DNA of 46,803 bases from Candidatus Zambryskiibacteriota bacterium. GTDB taxonomy: Bacteria > Patescibacteriota > Minisyncoccia > Phycocordibacterales > DATDWN01. Below, piece by piece: positions 4,992 through 13,680 of this stretch. How positions within the stretch are numbered: position 1 is the first letter of the stretch; every line of letters starts with the position of its first letter. The notes below the pieces were generated by a model. It did no database searches, was not told the DNA's origin, and saw only the letters and a program-made list of their open reading frames with translations. Made by a program: the position numbers and the translations under genes. The stretch covers positions 1 through 46,803 of the forward strand of contig JAHFOB010000007.1 in the NCBI GenBank assembly GCA_023267045.1, read 5' to 3'.

Positions 4992-5063
4992 TCCGCGGTA
5001 GCTCAATGGTAGAGCAATCGACTGTTAATCGATTGGTTGCAGGTTCGATCCCTGCCCGCGGAG
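4992..5063 (+). tRNA. tRNA-Asn (GTT)
   Basis: Acceptor TCCGCGG/CCGCGGA, anticodon arm ATCGA-CTGTTAA-TCGAT, T arm GCAGGTTCGATCCCTGC; CCA not encoded. Confidence 0.92.
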
Positions 5064-5077
5064 CTGAGCAATTTATT

Positions 5078-5329
5078 TCACCTATGCACACACCCGGCCC
5101 AGCAACACGGCCGGCGTTTGCCTTTGATAAGTTCCTCTATCACTCTCTTAATATGATCCTTCCTTGTCTCTATTTTCTTAACAGAGATAACCCAACAAAT
5201 CCACTCATTGCGAGCAAGTGGAGTAATATCTTGCCATGCATCGAGTGCGTCTTTCGAAGAAGCCAGCTTATCTCGCAAATCTGTTGGCAACGTATGCACC
5301 ACACCACCAGGAATTTCTTTTTTGAACAT
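5078..5329 (-). CDS. YdeI/OmpD-associated-like small protein
   Basis: MFKKEIPGGVVHTLPTDLRDKLASSKDALDAWQDITPLARNEWICWVISVKKIETRKDHIKRVIEELIKGKRRPCCW resembles the YdeI/OmpD-associated domain; start taken at internal ATG 5329. Confidence 0.7.
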   Translation of the reverse strand: MFKKEIPGGVVHTLPTDLRDKLASSKDALDAWQDITPLARNEWICWVISVKKIETRKDHIKRVIEELIKGKRRPCCWAGCVHR

Positions 5330-5419
5330 GGGATAATTATACCAAATACCGTGGATTATGAAGTCTTTTATTTTACTTCTGTTAATGATAAAATAAAATA
5401 AATAACAAAATAAAAAGCC

Positions 5420-6286
5420 ATGGATAACACAAACGATCAGTTTTATAGTGAAGCATTCAAACGAAATCGAGGACTGATAAGTGACGAGGATCAAGCTAAA
5501 TTAAGAAAAGCTCGTGTTGCGATTGCGGGGCTTGGAGCTGCTGGTGGAGTCAGCCTAACAACTCTCTTAAGATTGGGCGTTGAAAAATTTAATATCGCAG
5601 ACAATGATGTGTTTGATACGGTCAATCACAATCGTCAGGCCGGAGCCTTTGTCTCAACCAAAGGTCAGCCGAAAGTAGAGGTCATGGCAAAAATCGCACA
5701 AGATATAAATCCAAATGTAGATATCCGCAAATTTGATAAAGGTATTAGCCCAGAAAATATTGATGAGTTTTTGAAAGATGTAACAGTTGTAATGGACGGC
5801 ATGGACTTTTTTAACATGGACGCACGACTTTTGCTCTATCGTAAAGCTCGTGAACACAAAATCCCTGTTGTCGGATCAGCACCGATTGGTTTTGGATCAG
5901 CACTCCACACATTTACGCCAGACGGGATGAGTTTTGAAGAATATTGCGATATCAGAGAGAGTCAATCACTTGAAGAAAAACTACTTCGATTTGGAATTGG
6001 TCTTGGACCGTCCCTACTTCAGAGAAGTTACTACCCAATGAAAGTAGTCAATTTTAAAGATAAAGCTGCTCCATCATCGATTCTATCTATATCACTGGTT
6101 GGAAATCTAAACGGTACTCAAGCCTTTAAAGTAATAACAGGTAAAAAATATTTTAGCGCGCCTCATTCAATGCATTTTGATCCATACGTTGGAGAACTTC
6201 GAAAAGTTTATATTAAAAGAGGAAATAAAAGTCTGATGCAAAGACTAAAAATCTGGTACATAAAAAAGAAACTAAAGATTGCTTAA
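5420..6286 (+). CDS. ThiF/MoeB/HesA family (E1-like) adenylyltransferase
   Basis: Rossmann motif VAIAGLGAAGGVSLTTLLRLGV, IADNDVFDTVNHNRQ, VVMDGMDFFNMDARLLLYRKAREHKIPVVGSAPIGFGSALHTFTPDGMSFEEYCDI. Confidence 0.85.
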   Translation: MDNTNDQFYSEAFKRNRGLISDEDQAKLRKARVAIAGLGAAGGVSLTTLLRLGVEKFNIADNDVFDTVNHNRQAGAFVSTKGQPKVEVMAKIAQDINPNVDIRKFDKGISPENIDEFLKDVTVVMDGMDFFNMDARLLLYRKAREHKIPVVGSAPIGFGSALHTFTPDGMSFEEYCDIRESQSLEEKLLRFGIGLGPSLLQRSYYPMKVVNFKDKAAPSSILSISLVGNLNGTQAFKVITGKKYFSAPHSMHFDPYVGELRKVYIKRGNKSLMQRLKIWYIKKKLKIA

Positions 6287-6870
6287 TGAAAATTATTCTT
6301 GTAGGAAAAGAGGATAAATCTTTTTATGGAAAACAAGCGGCAAAAGAAGCAATCCAAGAGTTTTTTAGAGAAAACGAACAGTTAGAATTAGCTTTAGATG
6401 AAATTGAGATAACAAAAGAGTCTTCTGGCCGACCTACTTTTGTATTGAAAAATCATCCTGAAATTGACACCAGTGCATTTTGTCTTTCAATTTCCCACAC
6501 AGATCAATTTGTTGTAGTAGAAATAATAAAGGGTGGGTTGGTGGGTGTTGATATTGAAACTATTCGGAAATTCCCTATCCCCGTGTATGAAAATTTCCTG
6601 ACACCGTCCGAAAAAAAGTGGATTGAATCAATGCCTGAAAACGATAGAGATACGTACACAACTCTCGTATGGTCATTTAAAGAATCCTATCTTAAAGCTC
6701 TTGGGGTTGGACTACGAGTCCACCCATCAAAAGTAGAACTGAAACATCTAGAAAATGGAAATTTTAAATTACAAACAGAAAAAGAAAATGTAGGAATAAA
6801 TCTGTGGTACAAAATAGATAAAGAAAACAATGTAGTTATTACCAAAGTAACACTAGATTATTTGAGGTGA
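6286..6870 (+). CDS. 4'-phosphopantetheinyl transferase superfamily protein
   Basis: SGRPTF...FCLSISHTDQFVVVEII..GLVGVDIETIRKF...LVWSFKESYLKALGVGLRVHPSKVEL; TAATG overlap with preceding ThiF gene. Confidence 0.85.
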   Translation: MKIILVGKEDKSFYGKQAAKEAIQEFFRENEQLELALDEIEITKESSGRPTFVLKNHPEIDTSAFCLSISHTDQFVVVEIIKGGLVGVDIETIRKFPIPVYENFLTPSEKKWIESMPENDRDTYTTLVWSFKESYLKALGVGLRVHPSKVELKHLENGNFKLQTEKENVGINLWYKIDKENNVVITKVTLDYLR

Positions 6871-7899
6871 CTTTCTAACACTTTGGATAGTATTGATATT
6901 TTTTGTGTATCCAAGTCTGATACAAAAAGTTATCAGTCCATCTTTTACAGAAAGAGTGCTGTAGACTTCCCTACTTACTTTTTCTATTAACACAATTTCA
7001 CGTTCTGAAATACGTTCTTTATGATTTTTTTGTAGACGATTGTATAAAAACAAGATACTTGAAAGCGGTTGAACAGACAGTCCGTGAGCCGTTGCTTTAA
7101 GCCAGAGAGCCTGTAGTGCTCGTCCAGTCTCAATATATACTTCTGGGGTTTCTTCGCCTATAACAAAATATCCCAAAGCTGAACTTTGTTTGTATATTTT
7201 TCGTCTTTTAAAAAGAATAACGTGAGCAAGACCTATTTTGTTCAAGATATTTGTTAGTGACCAATTTTGCAGAATTTTGAGAGATATGACGTCAAAAAAA
7301 CTCGGTGAGATGGACCTTATATGCATACCATCGCCAGTTTTATTTAACTCTTCATCAGACCATCGAACATTTTTATAAAAATATGAATGAATTTCTGGAT
7401 TATCCAAAATTAATTCATCCCCCGTGGCCAAAAGATCTGTTAGTTTATGCAATGTCTTTTTGCTAGTCACAAGACCGAAGTTAACTTTGTAATTAGCAAC
7501 GGATTTTTTCAAATCTTCAATGACAGAACGCTCAATTGGCTTGGTTAAAAATGGTGTGCGATCTGTGTGACGATCTTTTATTGGGGGTAGTTTTGGAGGA
7601 TTTACAAATCCCGACTGAGAAAGTGTAAGTGTTGCAATATGATCTGAAGCTGTTGACTGTGGAAATAACTTAACATCTGTTTTATATCCTTTTGCCTCTG
7701 CAATTTGAACTATATTTTCTATGAGTGCCCCGTGAGCTATATATGATGGGTGTTTATCAAAATCATATAGTGCTAGTCCATCAGATGTATTAAAAATATC
7801 AATCGAATTTTCGCCCAGTCTAAAAGCCCACGGCTGAAGGTTATCCCCAGAGGGAGCGTAGACTGCAAGTTCTAGAATTTCATGTAAGATATTCTTCAT
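6853..7899 (-). CDS. Nitroreductase-fold protein
   Basis: ILELAVYAPSGDNLQPWAFRL, DRHTDRTPF, TGRALQALWLKATAHGLSVQPLSSI; 348 aa. Confidence 0.75.
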   Translation of the reverse strand: MKNILHEILELAVYAPSGDNLQPWAFRLGENSIDIFNTSDGLALYDFDKHPSYIAHGALIENIVQIAEAKGYKTDVKLFPQSTASDHIATLTLSQSGFVNPPKLPPIKDRHTDRTPFLTKPIERSVIEDLKKSVANYKVNFGLVTSKKTLHKLTDLLATGDELILDNPEIHSYFYKNVRWSDEELNKTGDGMHIRSISPSFFDVISLKILQNWSLTNILNKIGLAHVILFKRRKIYKQSSALGYFVIGEETPEVYIETGRALQALWLKATAHGLSVQPLSSILFLYNRLQKNHKERISEREIVLIEKVSREVYSTLSVKDGLITFCIRLGYTKNINTIQSVRKSPQII

Positions 7900-7972
7900 T
7901 ATCGTGTAGATTATATCACAATATTGTCATAAAATTTATTTTCTGATACCTTAATGATACTGTATTTTAAAA

Positions 7973-8001
7973 TTGACTTAAAATTTATTATATAATATAA
8001 C
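7973..8001 (+). promoter_or_regulatory. Candidate sigma70-type promoter of the first FeeM-like gene
   Basis: TTGACT - 17 nt - TATAAC, followed by AGGAGG (8007-8012) and ATG 8017. Confidence 0.4.
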
Positions 8002-8016
8002 CTCATAGGAGGATCT

Positions 8017-8718
8017 ATGGTATCTGAAACAAAAGGGTTGAAAATTGAAAGTGGGCTAGCAGCCAAGGAGGATATCGAAAAAATCCTTCAGCTAGTTGCC
8101 AGGATCTATCGAGAATCTGGCTACTTTAAAACAGATTCTGTTCCTGTTTCATGGAAAAGTACACTTTTTTCAGAAAACACCTCAATCTTTGTCGTAAAGG
8201 TTAATGGTGTCATTGTGGGCACAGTATCTGTAATTCATGATACTGGTAATATTCCCATGGATTTAGCTTTTCACGATGAACTGGAGATCTTGAGATCTAA
8301 AGGAAAAATCTCCGAAGTTGGAAAATTGGCGATCGATAAGGAACTACTGAAGAGTCTTATTGATGAAAATGGGGGAAAATCTAAAGAGCATGAGTTGTTT
8401 CAGAGAATTTCAATAACTCTTTTTGGACTTGTATATCTTGAGGGGTTGATGAAGGGTTCACGTTATCTGTGTATTGCTGTTCTCGAAAAACACTCAAGTT
8501 TTTACGAAACAGCTTTACTGTTCGAAAAAATAGGTGAACCACGCGGGTATTCAACTTCACCAGATATTCCAGCCACAATTGAGCGCCCCATGGCCCTTGA
8601 TTACAGCAAACGTTCAGAAATTCTTGCAAAGAATGGTGGACGGATCAACATGTTCTATGACGCTATGGCGCGAATGGTGCCAGAGCTGAAAAGTAAGTTC
8701 AGAACAAACACTGATTAA
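8017..8718 (+). CDS. FeeM-like N-acyltransferase (GNAT-fold N-acyl amino acid/autoinducer synthase-like)
   Basis: IYRESGYF..., VGTVSVIHDTGNIPMDLAFHDELEILRSKGKISEVGKLAIDKE, RYLCIAVLEKHSSFYETALLFEKIGEPRGY. Confidence 0.7.
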   Translation: MVSETKGLKIESGLAAKEDIEKILQLVARIYRESGYFKTDSVPVSWKSTLFSENTSIFVVKVNGVIVGTVSVIHDTGNIPMDLAFHDELEILRSKGKISEVGKLAIDKELLKSLIDENGGKSKEHELFQRISITLFGLVYLEGLMKGSRYLCIAVLEKHSSFYETALLFEKIGEPRGYSTSPDIPATIERPMALDYSKRSEILAKNGGRINMFYDAMARMVPELKSKFRTNTD

Positions 8719-8745
8719 CCAGCAACTATAGAACTGTTGCTGGTT
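8717..8745 (+). terminator. Intrinsic terminator after first FeeM-like gene
   Basis: AACCAGCAAC-tatagaact-GTTGCTGGTT followed by AATTTTTT. Confidence 0.85.
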
Positions 8746-8819
8746 AATTTTTTAATTTCGTGATAGTATTTCACTTACTCAGCAAGTAAAGATAATCTTT
8801 ATATTTTACCCAAAATCCA

Positions 8820-9065
8820 ATGCAAATTGACCAATACGTGTTCCATGTAGTATCTGATACTCTGAAGGTCCCAAAAGAAAAAATAACTAACCAAGAAAAA
8901 CTACTAGATTTAGTCCAAGACTCTATTCAACTGTTTGAACTTTTAATGCGTTTTGAGAAAGAACTTGGTAGAAACTTTGACTACGATGAAGTTGCTAAAA
9001 TAGAAAGTGTCGGAGACATAATAAAATATGCCCAAAAACTAGGCTTGCAAACTGTCAAGATTTAG
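8820..9065 (+). CDS. Acyl carrier protein
   Basis: 81 aa; LLDLVQDSIQLFELLMRFEKELGRNFDYDEVAKIESVGDIIKYA with phosphopantetheine Ser in DSI. Confidence 0.8.
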   Translation: MQIDQYVFHVVSDTLKVPKEKITNQEKLLDLVQDSIQLFELLMRFEKELGRNFDYDEVAKIESVGDIIKYAQKLGLQTVKI

Positions 9066-9070
9066 AGTTT

Positions 9071-9664
9071 ATGTATCGCTACGAAATAGCAAAAAATGAA
9101 GACGAAAAGCGAGCGGTATTGCCACTTATAAAAAAACTCTACGTTGAACAGGGGTATATCTCGAAAGATAGTGAGAATAATTCGTTTACTACATTTTTGC
9201 TTTCGCCATTTACCCAAGTCTTTATGGGATACGCAAATGATGTTTTATTTGCCACAATATCCTTGGTACCAGATTCAGATCTGGGCTTGCCTATGGATGA
9301 TTTGTTCAAAGATGAGCTAAAACCCTTTAAACAAAAGAAAATAGCAGAAGTAACTCAATATGCTGTTGATCATGAAACTTTAAAAGAACAAGACAAAAGT
9401 TTAACTCAAATTGGCCAGTTTATGTCTTCAGTACCACTTTTGAAAATAGTCTTGAAAACTGCCAAAGAAAAAAAGATTGATTATCTCTGTATTGCTATAA
9501 ATCCAAAACACGATCCTTTTTATAAAAGTATTGGATTTGTTTCAATTGGGGAGTTAAAATATTATCCAAAAGTAAATAATGCCCCTGCTCTGCCAAGAAT
9601 TTTGGACATCACAACCTTAGAAAATAATGAAAAATTGCCAGGATTTCTAAAAAATTTAGACTAG
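9071..9664 (+). CDS. Second FeeM-like N-acyltransferase
   Basis: LFATISLVPDSDLGLPMDDLFKDELKPFKQKKIAEVTQYAVDHE...DYLCIAINPKHDPFYKSIGFVSIGELKYY, paralogous to 8017-8718. Confidence 0.7.
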   Translation: MYRYEIAKNEDEKRAVLPLIKKLYVEQGYISKDSENNSFTTFLLSPFTQVFMGYANDVLFATISLVPDSDLGLPMDDLFKDELKPFKQKKIAEVTQYAVDHETLKEQDKSLTQIGQFMSSVPLLKIVLKTAKEKKIDYLCIAINPKHDPFYKSIGFVSIGELKYYPKVNNAPALPRILDITTLENNEKLPGFLKNLD

Positions 9665-10351
9665 ATTTTTGAAAACGTGTTTTATTGTATCAAACCACAG
9701 AGCATATCCTAGGTCGTTTGGGTGAGCCTTATCTATCGAAAAATATTTTTTCTTGTCTAGCAAAAGTCTACTGAAATCTTGAGAGGTTATGACACAGAAA
9801 TGCAACTTACCTATCTTAGTAAACAATTCTTCTACTTTTTTTGCTCTCCAATTAAGAATACCTGTAAGTGGAAAATGGTACATCGGCAATAAACCGGTAT
9901 TGTGTGGCGGAACTAAAATTATTCGCTTTGCATGATTTTTCAAAAGAGAAAGTAAATCTTCAAGTGTTTTTTCTAAACTATCTATATTAGTCATTTTTAT
10001 CACATCCATCCCACCAAGAATAGCAATAGCCATATCATAATTTTTCAAATCTTTACTCTTTAGATATTCCAGAACTTGTATAGTATTTAAGCCATTTTTA
10101 CAATAGTTAGTGATAAGAGCAGTAGGTAAATTTTGTCCTAATAATCCAAAAAATGAACTATCTGGAGATGTTGATCCAACACCAACTCCTATACTGTCTC
10201 CTACACATAAAATACGAATCGTGGGATTTTGTGGATGTTGATTAAAAGCTGTAGTTTTTTTGCCTACAAACTTTGCTATCAGTCCAAAATATACAATCCT
10301 ACCGACATAAATTGCAAGGAAAATGACAAGAAAACTAACTAATAGGGTCAT
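9656..10351 (-). CDS. SGNH/GDSL-type hydrolase (membrane-anchored)
   Basis: RILCVGDSIGVGVGSTSPDSSFFGLL ... KAHPNDLGYALW; N-terminal TM. Confidence 0.75.
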   Translation of the reverse strand: MTLLVSFLVIFLAIYVGRIVYFGLIAKFVGKKTTAFNQHPQNPTIRILCVGDSIGVGVGSTSPDSSFFGLLGQNLPTALITNYCKNGLNTIQVLEYLKSKDLKNYDMAIAILGGMDVIKMTNIDSLEKTLEDLLSLLKNHAKRIILVPPHNTGLLPMYHFPLTGILNWRAKKVEELFTKIGKLHFCVITSQDFSRLLLDKKKYFSIDKAHPNDLGYALWFDTIKHVFKNLV

Positions 10352-10416
10352 GTTGTGTTTAATACTACTCTCAATTTTAGTTTGTCACAACCAAACAAAT
10401 TTACTATAATCAGTCG

Positions 10417-10971
10417 ATGGAATTGACTGTCTATGGCATTTTTATAGCTTCGTTCTTTCTTGGAGAAAACGTTACAATACCTGCATTTGTTCTAGCTAAT
10501 CAAGGTTACGTAAGCATCTGGGTCGTATTGGTTGCGACATACTTAGCGTCACTGTGTGCTGACATTTTTTGGTATGGAATCTGTTACTTTTTCTTCAAGA
10601 AATTTGATTTGGAAAAATGGTATAACAAAACTCATATTTCTAATCAGAGAATTTATAAATTCATCCTTGAAAAGCATACTTTTGTATCAATAACTTTTAT
10701 AAAATTTCTCGTCGGCTTACGACTCATACTTACGCTAGCTTTAATTTTGATAAAAAAGTTTTCTTTCAAAAAGTTTGTACTTTTTAGTGCATTAAGCAAC
10801 ATCGTTTTAATTGCAGGATTATCTATATTGGGATTACTGATAAGTCATGGATTGAATCTACTTCCAATTTATCGAGGAGTCTCTAGTATAGTCACTATTG
10901 TTATTATATCTTTACTTATAGTAAATATTCTGCCACTATTTTTGAAATCATATCTATCTAAAAATAACTAG
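10417..10971 (+). CDS. DedA/VTT-like small integral membrane protein
   Basis: LASLCADIFWYGICYFFFKKF..., FIKFLVGLRLILTLALIL; multiple TM helices. Confidence 0.6.
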   Translation: MELTVYGIFIASFFLGENVTIPAFVLANQGYVSIWVVLVATYLASLCADIFWYGICYFFFKKFDLEKWYNKTHISNQRIYKFILEKHTFVSITFIKFLVGLRLILTLALILIKKFSFKKFVLFSALSNIVLIAGLSILGLLISHGLNLLPIYRGVSSIVTIVIISLLIVNILPLFLKSYLSKNN

Positions 10972-10976
10972 CCGAC

Positions 10977-11600
10977 ATGGAAAGTGAAATGCCTTACGAG
11001 TTTAGACCAGCAATCAATAAACGTTTTATACGTTTTTTCTATGATCTGTGGTGTTCGTTAGGAAATTTAGGTAAACATTTCAAATTACACGTTATACAAT
11101 CGGCAGGAATTAGAGATGGCGACACTATCCTAGATATAGGATGTGGTACTGGAGTTTTATTGAGAGAAGTTTCAAAAAAATACAAAAATCTAGAGCTCGT
11201 GGGCGTTGACCCAGATAAGGAAGTCTTAGATATTGCAAGAATACGTTTGGAGAAATCAGGTGTCAAAGCAACGTTATATTCAGAATATGCTGAAAATTTG
11301 TCACTTGTTTCTAATTCAGTTGATGTTGTTATTTCTACTCTGTGTTTCCATCACATGCCAAACGACATAAAACAACAAGCATCAAGAGAAATATACAGAG
11401 TTTTAAAACCGTCAGGCACTGTTGTTGTAGCTGACTTTGGTCCAGGCAGAAAATCCCCATATTGGTTTGAGAAGAAAGAGTATATGGAAGGAAATCAAAA
11501 GGGTCTAATTCCTATATTTTTAAAAGAAGCTGGATTTCGTAACGTGAATGAAGTTGGAAAACATTTTCCTGGTGTAAGTATTATAAAAGGACAGAAATAG
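10977..11600 (+). CDS. Class I SAM-dependent methyltransferase
   Basis: ILDIGCGTGVLLREVSKKYKNLELVGVDPD, VDVVISTLCFHHMPNDIKQQASREIYRVLKPSGTVVVADFG. Confidence 0.88.
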   Translation: MESEMPYEFRPAINKRFIRFFYDLWCSLGNLGKHFKLHVIQSAGIRDGDTILDIGCGTGVLLREVSKKYKNLELVGVDPDKEVLDIARIRLEKSGVKATLYSEYAENLSLVSNSVDVVISTLCFHHMPNDIKQQASREIYRVLKPSGTVVVADFGPGRKSPYWFEKKEYMEGNQKGLIPIFLKEAGFRNVNEVGKHFPGVSIIKGQK

Positions 11601-11618
11601 AGCCAATTCTAGTATGTT

Positions 11619-12194
11619 ATGATATCCTGTAATACTATGACTGAAAATCTTAAGACAAATTTGCCGAGTGTTGCGTACATTGGATTAAAAGATATTCCTC
11701 TAGTGACCCACCAGTCACGTATTAGATGTGGTTATTATACTGCAGAGTGGATAGCTAGAGCCATAGGACTCCATCCTAAACCAGCCAATGAAATAATCAG
11801 AGGGCCTTTGTGGTTTGACATTTTTCGCCCTGTTCTACCAAGAGATATGATGGCCATATTTAAATTTCGAGGGATGGATAGTGTTCAGGTAGATTTGAGC
11901 AAATTTTCTGTTTCTGAAAGAGCTAACTGGATTAAAAACGAAGTGACAATAAAGAGAAAACCACCGTCTATTTTGATAAGAAAAAAACCGCTACACTGGA
12001 TAGCCATAGGTGGGTATGACGATGAGAAAAAAATTTTCTATATATATGATTCATCTTTTGGACTAAATTCGACAAATCCAAATCTACCTATAGGAAATTC
12101 AACTATAAAATACGAGGATCTAGATAAGTTATGGACTGGCGGCTGGTTTCTGAACTATAGAGCAATAGTTATTAACACAGACAATCTAAACTAA
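11619..12194 (+). CDS. C39-like / papain-like cysteine peptidase family protein
   Basis: Cys in RIRCGYYTAEWIARAIG, His in KPLHWIAIGGYDD, Asp in FYIYDSSFGLNST. Confidence 0.6.
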   Translation: MISCNTMTENLKTNLPSVAYIGLKDIPLVTHQSRIRCGYYTAEWIARAIGLHPKPANEIIRGPLWFDIFRPVLPRDMMAIFKFRGMDSVQVDLSKFSVSERANWIKNEVTIKRKPPSILIRKKPLHWIAIGGYDDEKKIFYIYDSSFGLNSTNPNLPIGNSTIKYEDLDKLWTGGWFLNYRAIVINTDNLN

Positions 12195-12358
12195 TTTTAC
12201 AAAATCTAAGTAATCCACAGGTATCTAGTAAATCTTATTGAAATATCCTGGGTGTGTTGTATAATTCTATTAATACTTTATAAATAATTTAAGCTCTTTG
12301 ATTTTTGGTTGTTCTTTGAGCATACGTTATTTAATCCCGTTTATTATTAAAATAATAT

Positions 12359-12940
12359 TTGTTCATGAAGAACCTTCACAAAAATAAGCATTTTGAATCG
12401 CTCGTAGCTTGGGTAGCATTTATTGTCATTATTACTCTTGGTCTCATGTGGGTAGCCTCCAAAGAAAATGATTCGATAATAGCAAACCAGTATCTCTCCT
12501 CTCAAAAAACAACAAAAGTATCTACTAAAAAAGTTGATTCTTCTGTTAACGGCATAATAGCTGGAATAGCTAACGCCTCAATATTTGAATCATATTTGAA
12601 TAAGACAGGTGTAAACAATGAAATCAGTGGAACTGGACCTTATACAGTTTTCGTTCCAATCGACTCTTCTTTTGGACATCTAAAAGCAGGGACTGTTTCT
12701 GGCTTGAGTGCAACTGAACAAAAAAGACTAGTGGAGTATCACGTTGTTCCTAATAGAGTGGTAGATGGAAGTGTGGCTTTTGGAACCATAACTTCACTTT
12801 CTAGAGATATCCTAAATCTAGACGCAAAAAATCCGACAAAGACTCTCATGGTAAATAGTTCTAAAGTGGTTGGATCATACAAGGCTACAAACGGTATAGT
12901 TTATCTAATAAGCGAAGTTCTACTCCCCCCATTAAAATAG
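12359..12940 (+). CDS. Fasciclin-domain membrane-anchored protein
   Basis: SIFESYLNKTGVNNEISGTGPYTVFVPIDSSFGHLKAGTVSGLSATEQKRLVEYHVVPNRVVDGS...GIVYLISEVLLPP. Confidence 0.85.
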   Translation: MFMKNLHKNKHFESLVAWVAFIVIITLGLMWVASKENDSIIANQYLSSQKTTKVSTKKVDSSVNGIIAGIANASIFESYLNKTGVNNEISGTGPYTVFVPIDSSFGHLKAGTVSGLSATEQKRLVEYHVVPNRVVDGSVAFGTITSLSRDILNLDAKNPTKTLMVNSSKVVGSYKATNGIVYLISEVLLPPLK

Positions 12941-12960
12941 CTCTGTTTGATATACGGAAC

Positions 12961-12987
12961 AAAAATCCCCAGACAATGGGGATTTTT
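12961..12987 (+). terminator. Intrinsic terminator
   Basis: AAAAATCCCC-agacaat-GGGGATTTTT. Confidence 0.85.
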
Positions 12988-13001
12988 GTTATTATTGATA
13001 G

Positions 13002-13322
13002 ATGAACAAATTTCTTGAGACTACACATCTTTCGGAAATACTGGAGAAGTCAGAGAAAAATCCCGTGATTATTTTCAAATATTCCAGAGAATGCAACAGT
13101 AGCACTAGACTTTCTCTCGAGTTGGAAAAAATTATGGACCAAAAAAAATTAACACTGCCTATTTATAGAGTAACAGTCCAGACTCAAAGAGTTCTCTCCA
13201 ACAGAATAGAAGAGTGGTTTCAAATAAAACACGAATCCCCTCAAATAATCGTAGTTAAAAATGGAAGAGTCTTATACACTGCTCACCATAGTGGAATAAA
13301 ACTAGAGGATTTTGCAAAGTAA
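13002..13322 (+). CDS. YtxJ/bacillithiol-system-like thioredoxin-fold protein (DUF2847-like)
   Basis: PVIIFKYSRECNSSTRLSLELEKI...YRVTVQTQRVLSNRIEEWFQIKHESPQIIVVKNGRVLYTAHHSGI. Confidence 0.75.
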   Translation: MNKFLETTHLSEILEKSEKNPVIIFKYSRECNSSTRLSLELEKIMDQKKLTLPIYRVTVQTQRVLSNRIEEWFQIKHESPQIIVVKNGRVLYTAHHSGIKLEDFAK

Positions 13323-13323
13323 A

Positions 13324-13341
13324 AAAGCCCCGATGGGCTTT
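13324..13341 (+). terminator. Intrinsic terminator
   Basis: AAAGCCC-cgat-GGGCTTT. Confidence 0.65.
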
Positions 13342-13366
13342 CTTACAAAGACAAACTAAAATAAAA

Positions 13367-13579
13367 CTACATTGACATCCCTGCTTTTGCCTCACAGTTT
13401 TTGCATCGGCTCTTGTGTGTCAAAGCTTCATAGATAGCAGAAAGTCCTACTAGAACGTAAACGATCATAGCTATCGATGAACCCAACTTATCAACTAGGT
13501 TAATCCCAAAAGCTACAAGTCCCCAGTTTAGACCACCGATTATGAGTAGAATAAAACTGATTGTGTGTAATGATTTCAT
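13367..13579 (-). CDS. DUF378-like small membrane protein
   Basis: MKSLHTISFILLIIGGLNWGLVAFGINLVDKL...YVLVGLSAIYEA. Confidence 0.8.
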   Translation of the reverse strand: MKSLHTISFILLIIGGLNWGLVAFGINLVDKLGSSIAMIVYVLVGLSAIYEALTHKSRCKNCEAKAGMSM

Positions 13580-13680
13580 AAATGAACTTATTTTCTATTA
13601 AAGACTAATAATTCTCACGACCATTATTATACAATATATAAAAAGATATTAAAACCCTATCTGTGTATATTTTGGTGTAG

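Follow-up and report, generated by a model that had tools for sequence, protein, structure and literature searches.

A candidate N-acyl amino acid and oxazolone biosynthetic island with its own acyl carrier protein in a reduced-genome bacterium

Gene content and core enzymes of the island

Contig JAHFOB010000007.1 of a Candidatus Zambryskiibacteriota bacterium (assembly GCA_023267045.1), analysed over positions 1 to 46,803 (the window), carries at positions 5420-12194 a run of ten genes that an initial annotation had proposed to build acylated amino acids or peptides. All ten open frames were confirmed (Table 1), and profile searches placed nine of the ten proteins above the curated Pfam cut-offs, the C39-like protein falling below. 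The ends of the ThiF and phosphopantetheinyl transferase (PPTase) genes overlap, as do those of the FeeM2 and SGNH hydrolase genes; the acyl carrier protein (ACP) gene lies between both FeeM genes, 5 bp from FeeM2, and gaps of 5 and 18 bp separate the VTT, methyltransferase and papain-fold genes, in that order. Because the nitroreductase and SGNH genes are on the minus strand and the other eight on the plus strand, the island is not a single operon; a promoter and terminator scan gave no signal above shuffled sequences. What had been described as a small membrane protein is indeed a membrane protein, and more exactly a VTT-domain protein.

Table 1. Features of the island and its 5' border in the window
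Feature	Position	Strand	Evidence and remarks
tRNA-Asn	4992..5064	+	ARAGORN and Rfam; 5' edge of variable region, insertion hotspot
OxzB/TyzB-type ThiF adenylyltransferase/cyclase	5420..6286	+	PF00899 E 2e-41; NF006077; tree
Sfp/AcpS-type phosphopantetheinyl transferase (PPTase)	6286..6870	+	PF01648 E 4e-20; motifs
Acg-type nitroreductase-fold flavin-dependent oxidase (predicted desaturase)	6853..7899	-	NF005901, NF047509, PDB 2ymv; Pfam Nitroreductase E 1e-9
FeeM-type N-acyltransferase 1 (FeeM1)	8017..8718	+	PF21926 E 3e-25; AlphaFold model against 2g0b
Acyl carrier protein (ACP)	8820..9065	+	PF00550 (PP-binding) E 9e-8; DSI attachment Ser35
FeeM-type N-acyltransferase 2 (FeeM2)	9071..9664	+	PF21926 E 7e-30; PDB 2g0b
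SGNH/GDSL hydrolase	9656..10351	-	PF13472 (Lipase_GDSL_2) E 5e-12; partner in G1089
VTT (DedA-like) membrane protein, possible lipid transporter	10417..10971	+	PF09335 E 8e-9, above cut-off
S-adenosylmethionine (SAM) methyltransferase, UbiE-like	10977..11600	+	PF13649 E 6e-24; TIGR01934 MenG/UbiE E 2e-18, below TIGR01934 cut-off
Papain/C39-fold protein with Cys37-His126-Asp144	11619..12194	+	homologues in G595 and G1089 clusters; fold match; triad

The ThiF protein scores 323.6 bits against NF006077 (cut-off 266) and matches the N-terminal half of the Rv1355c profile (E 4e-21), while the oxidase, encoded next but one to ThiF on the opposite strand, matches the C-terminal half of Rv1355c (NF005901, E 3e-53), the Acg family (NF047509, E 4e-45) and the Acg structure 2ymv (E 3e-7). 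The NCBIfam families PRK07877 (Rv1355c) and PRK14851 are likewise matched by ThiF over their N-terminal and by the nitroreductase over their C-terminal half; in PRK14852, both FeeMs match the N-terminal part, and ThiF and the nitroreductase the middle and C-terminal parts. In a ThiF tree of 113 rows, computed without TyzB and TrzS themselves, the window protein falls within a 78-row Oxz-type clade (Shimodaira-Hasegawa approximate likelihood ratio test, 99) that also contains ThiF-nitroreductase fusions. It groups there (support 97) with the proteins of two relatives from other families of the class (G282 and G595, see below) and one from Moraniibacteriota, the group being a supported sub-clade of reduced-genome bacteria. 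This grouping, the reduced genome and the undetected fatty-acid synthesis together point to a patescibacterium. A sulfur-carrier E1 enzyme of the MoeB/ThiF kind was considered and rejected, since the protein has a single Cys and no CXXC pairs and the MoeB-like branch lies outside the Oxz-type clade. The adenylation residues R15, N69, R72, K85 and D126, conserved among 86 homologues, are kept in the window protein, and N20, R110, R114 and R328 of the oxidase are invariant across 39 homologues. Asp217, Arg540 and Gln651 have been tested in TrzS in the literature; D126 of ThiF and R110/R114/R328/Q277 of the oxidase are family-conserved and may include their counterparts.

Both N-acyltransferases proved to be of the FeeM type announced by the initial annotation, and neither adopts an unrelated fold: their sequences match the FeeM family in Pfam, FeeM2 aligns with FeeM (2g0b) over almost its whole length (E 7e-31), and the best PDB match of the FeeM1 AlphaFold model (pLDDT 83) is also 2g0b (E 1e-13). 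The FeeM1 fold matches LasI as well. The FeeM glutamate (E100 in FeeM1; E93) is conserved in 95% of homologues.

The last gene of the island encodes what had been called a C39-like protease. By sequence the protein scores below threshold for this label (PF13529, Peptidase C39, 14.6 bits against a cut-off of 24), and a C39-like profile gave only weak matches to PDB sequences (E 0.5-1). The papain fold is nonetheless backed by a model of moderate quality (pLDDT 66), which matches the phytochelatin synthase Alr0975 and C39 domains (E 3e-5 to 1e-3), phytochelatin synthase being the nearest fold, and by the residues Cys37, His126 and Asp144, invariant in six homologues. The protein is a stand-alone soluble domain. 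Homologues lie within the corresponding clusters of G595 (46-48% identity) and G1089 (59%); C39 matches elsewhere in the phylum (L161-L164) are either distant or unrelated. Since phytochelatin synthase works through an acyl-enzyme thioester, it is a reasonable guess, by analogy, that the papain-fold protein would transfer or hydrolyse an acyl group or a ring carbonyl.

A single carrier protein and no detected fatty-acid synthesis

The PPTase carries the motifs GVDIE and WSFKESYLKALG, and its gene adjoins the ACP gene in three relatives (G282, G595 and G1089). The ACP of the island is the sole PF00550 match in the 750 kb assembly, which is 94.6% complete. Family searches of this assembly, whose controls were positive, detected no ketosynthase, no AMP-binding ligase or adenylation domain of the non-ribosomal peptide synthetase (NRPS) type, and no PlsC-like acyltransferase (PF01553); a PF00975 thioesterase was not detected either. 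These absences apply to the families searched, in an assembly that is not closed. It had been remarked initially that no ketosynthase or fatty-acid synthase gene is visible in the island; ketosynthases went undetected genome-wide, and the acyl groups are thus likely to come from outside the cell. NRPS-type chemistry was rejected because the genome lacks a detectable AMP-binding domain.

Carrier proteins are uncommon in these bacteria, with any ACP match in 36 of 368 genomes of the class. Their other neighbourhoods were varied, some with other acyl-metabolism genes and none with the gene set of the island: at loci including L209, L214 and L216, some ACP genes stand beside acyl-CoA-dehydrogenase-like, holo-ACP-synthase-like or MaoC-like genes and others alone.

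Recurrence in relatives and genomic setting

The cluster is rare, the NF006077 cut-off being exceeded in three of 384 genomes of the class. FeeM was found in only 13 of 380 genomes surveyed in the phylum, which speaks against a chance set. The gene combination also recurs in relatives, as a survey of gene neighbourhoods revealed. In G282, from another family of the same class, ThiF, a PlsC-like protein, PPTase, ACP and an alpha/beta hydrolase are found with MacB/FtsX permeases, an ABC ATPase, HlyD, FeeM and a nitroreductase. In G595, from a third family, a PlsC-like protein, ThiF, the papain-fold protein, ACP and PPTase are followed by a permease, an ATPase, an HlyD-like protein and FeeM. G1089, from the same genus as the window, has SGNH (48% identical to that of the window), PlsC-like, PPTase, ACP, FeeM, VTT (74% identical) and papain-fold genes, the last with a second copy, on a contig that stops ahead of any ThiF. 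Counting the window, PPTase, ACP and FeeM are present in four clusters out of four, ThiF in each whose contig is long enough, and the papain-fold and PlsC-like proteins in three each. The association of the ACP and the PPTase with the acyltransferases, initially proposed from the window, is thus borne out by their co-occurrence with FeeM in relatives. The PlsC-like proteins of G282, G595 and G1089 have NHxxxxD and FPEG motifs. MacB/HlyD exporter genes accompany the clusters of G282 and G595 and also a fourth ThiF locus, on a Moraniibacteriota contig (L074), where ThiF is next to the same permease-ATPase-HlyD set. A methyltransferase gene was not found in the clusters of the three relatives.

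Outside these clusters, 59 of 78 ThiF-related loci in other genomes contain FeeM and 37 a nitroreductase, fused to ThiF in 16 of them, and the pairing of ThiF with FeeM recurs across several phyla. One Planctomycetota locus (L123) has a ThiF-FeeM fusion of 661 amino acids plus separate FeeM and ThiF genes. Plasmid searches returned one ThiF-FeeM pair, in Nitratidesulfovibrio plasmids, and otherwise remote matches. A lone FeeM in a genome of the same family (G872, L199) was not counted as a cluster of this kind; a large serine recombinase and a replication-like protein in its vicinity point to a mobile element.

The contig is chromosomal, since its flanks are syntenic with same-genus genomes. 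A priA-def-fmt-hpf block is kept in six of these, followed by tRNA-Asn in four of the six, and a DUF378-PH-DedA-typA block lies on the far side in both genomes whose stretch reaches that far. The site between the two blocks is a cargo hotspot: 3' of tRNA-Asn (5065-13600 in the window), same-genus genomes have differing genes and none of the ten of the island (L154-L160). The ten other same-genus genomes, all but G1089, lack FeeM, and the island was probably gained, or repeatedly lost, at the tRNA-Asn site. No integrase was identified at the island, and its GC content is no different from that of the upstream flank. Directly 3' of the island, a fasciclin-domain protein (PF02469, E 4e-22) is encoded at 12359-12940; it was not seen in the clusters of the relatives.

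A predicted oxazolone-type pathway and its alternatives

The core of the island corresponds to a pathway that has recently been described in Mycobacterium tuberculosis and some marine bacteria. OxzAB, TyzACB and TrzAS carry out N-acylation, cyclisation and desaturation (PMC10404671, PMC12856293): Rv1355c is TrzS, a ThiF-oxidase fusion that cyclises and desaturates the N-acyl-tryptophan made by TrzA, and TyzACB and OxzAB perform the same reactions with tyrosine or phenylalanine (PMC12856293, PMC10404671). A FeeM-type acyltransferase, a ThiF of the OxzB/TrzS kind and an adjacent Acg/FDO-type nitroreductase, the hallmarks of these systems, are all found here. The arrangement is that of TyzACB of M. 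tuberculosis (Rv2336, Rv2337c and Rv2338c; C12:0-tyrazolone), in which N-acyltransferase, ThiF and Acg-type oxidase are separate genes; however, acyl-CoA is the donor for TyzA, the system is described without ACP, PPTase or papain-fold protein, and M. tuberculosis is fully equipped for lipid synthesis. TrzAS (Rv1356c, Rv1355c) and OxzAB of Pseudoalteromonas rubra are linked to the island by the Rv1355c family profile, one half of which is matched by the ThiF of the window and the other by its oxidase, but there the two activities are fused and served by one acyltransferase, instead of separate genes with two. Producers of N-acyl-dehydrotyrosines have ThiF, a nitroreductase and an N-acyl amino acid synthase in common, and the Stieleria neptunia locus adds a UbiE-like methyltransferase (PMC12479983). 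This stieleriacine locus (NasY, UbiE-like methyltransferase, ThiF, nitroreductase) shares the core genes and the methyltransferase with the window, but it yields free N-acyl-dehydrotyrosines, an oxazolone was not seen, and no dedicated ACP or PPTase is described. The FeeM synthase itself (2g0b), which like the window has an adjacent ACP gene, comes from an environmental clone, unlike the window.

We consider it probable, by analogy with these pathways, that the island makes an N-acyl amino acid which is converted to an oxazolone (azlactone) or a 2,3-dehydro-N-acyl amino acid, a core identity that the initial annotation missed. The enzyme families and their co-occurrence are directly supported, and the chemistry of acyl transfer, cyclisation and desaturation is carried over from the characterised homologues; beyond this, we infer the acyl source, the amino acid substrate and the roles in tailoring and export. 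In the proposed sequence, the PPTase would convert the sole ACP to its active form, the ACP would carry an acyl group, probably scavenged since no fatty-acid synthase was detected, and FeeM1 and/or FeeM2 would attach it to an amino acid at the amino group. The presence of two FeeMs may reflect the use of two different chain lengths or amino acids. Because the combination of ThiF, FeeM and Acg-type nitroreductase is that of the published pathway, ThiF most likely does not build a peptide but adenylates an N-acyl amino acid at its carboxylate and forms the oxazolone ring, and the Acg-type flavin oxidase most likely desaturates the alpha-beta bond. The methyltransferase, SGNH hydrolase and papain-fold protein would have roles in tailoring, releasing or recycling intermediates. 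Passage of the product across the membrane would be aided by the VTT protein, or in some relatives by a MacB/HlyD ABC exporter. Of the product first proposed, the N-acylated amino acid thus stands and the peptide does not, there being no precursor-like small open frame and no NRPS-type adenylation domain; methylation may occur, as the Stieleria cluster suggests, the absence of the gene from the three relatives speaking against it.

Several points weigh against this pathway. No ACP-loading enzyme was found in the genome in searches for ketosynthases, AMP-ligases and PlsC-like proteins; TyzA and TrzA use acyl-CoA, so that the ACP may serve another role; no nitroreductase was seen in the stretch of G595 that was read, so desaturation is not universal in the ACP-bearing variant; and characterised oxidases need O2, which the habitat of the organism may not supply.

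Other readings have to be set against it. OlsB/GlsB N-acylate an amino acid and OlsA/GlsA, which are PlsC-like, add a second acyl chain. An aminolipid pathway, in which FeeM would N-acylate an amino acid, a PlsC-like enzyme add the second chain and ThiF activate the head group, would account for the same pairing in three of the four clusters (G282, G595 and G1089), and the SGNH and VTT proteins suit lipid handling. We nevertheless regard it as unlikely: the PlsC-like partner is missing from the genome of the window as searched with PF01553, the FeeMs match FeeM and not the OlsB-type family Acetyltransf_5, and the Oxz-type ThiF and Acg-type oxidase would be left unexplained. A diffusible N-acyl amino acid or oxazolone autoinducer for communication between cells or with a host is suggested by FeeM-like genes elsewhere in the phylum, which adjoin histidine kinases at all ten loci tested (HisKA_7TM above cut-off at nine, ThiF adjacent at six), by the LasI match of the FeeM1 fold and by LuxI homologues next to sensor kinases in CPR (Candidate Phyla Radiation) genomes (PMC7567580, whose text does not mention ThiF). 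A kinase or receptor gene is, however, absent from the island and from the type-A neighbourhoods read, and kinase-linked ThiFs branch outside the type-A and Oxz clade; they are hence a related context and not proof of a signalling role of the island. Such a role, to which we give a low probability as an explanation of its own, would be compatible with oxazolone synthesis and not a different chemistry. Finally, E1-like enzymes, nitroreductases and C39 proteins are all known from peptide pathways, and the modelled papain fold would fit a ribosomally synthesised and post-translationally modified peptide (RiPP) pathway in which ThiF adenylates the C-terminus of a peptide, the nitroreductase dehydrogenates it, the C39-like protein cleaves its leader and the FeeMs lipidate it. 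This is very improbable, given that no convincing precursor-like small open frame was found in the gaps of the island, that the papain protein is a soluble stand-alone domain closest to phytochelatin synthase, and that ThiF and the oxidase belong to oxazolone subfamilies. A chance gathering of unrelated genes, which the variability of the tRNA-Asn site in the genus and the absence of FeeMs from most same-genus genomes might suggest, seems just as improbable: the genes are found together again in a second species of the genus (G1089) and in members of two further families of the class (G282, G595), and ThiF accompanies FeeM in several phyla.

The FeeM-kinase loci merit attention in their own right. 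Six have ThiF, FeeM and a kinase (L018, L019, L020, L021, L023, L025), four FeeM and a kinase (L022, L024, L026, L027), and four further loci alike were found through ThiF (L061-L064). With HisKA/HATPase kinases and often a response regulator and ThiF, they form a candidate synthase-receptor module that PMC7567580 anticipated in part. PlsC-like and FeeM-like proteins are paired again at L024:8820-9470, where their genes diverge next to a histidine kinase.

The oxazolone-type core is known chemistry; what is new is its setting, together with the PPTase, sole ACP, papain-fold protein, SGNH hydrolase and VTT protein around it. It is tempting to speculate, though we hold this to be rather doubtful, that a private acyl carrier system is kept for one purpose only, the conversion of acyl groups scavenged from partners into an oxazolone or N-acyl amino acid for export. 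The PPTase might then load the ACP in one step with acyl-phosphopantetheine from scavenged acyl-CoA, so that no acyl-ACP ligase would be needed, and the papain-fold protein might act on the acyl-thioester or the ring, by acyl transfer or ring opening, and not as a peptidase.

In the prevailing view, such reduced-genome bacteria produce few secondary metabolites themselves (PMC12455944). Here, a conserved pathway with a dedicated carrier, in a genome without detected fatty-acid synthesis, provides a defined set of enzymes with a predicted class of product, and this product is a candidate molecule by which reduced-genome cells could act on their partners. If the prediction is true, the recently described bacterial oxazolones would extend to a reduced-genome group, and the island points to a variant that depends on an ACP, in a pathway hitherto demonstrated with acyl-CoA. 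How an ACP is used in single-ACP genomes without fatty-acid synthesis thereby becomes a directly testable question.

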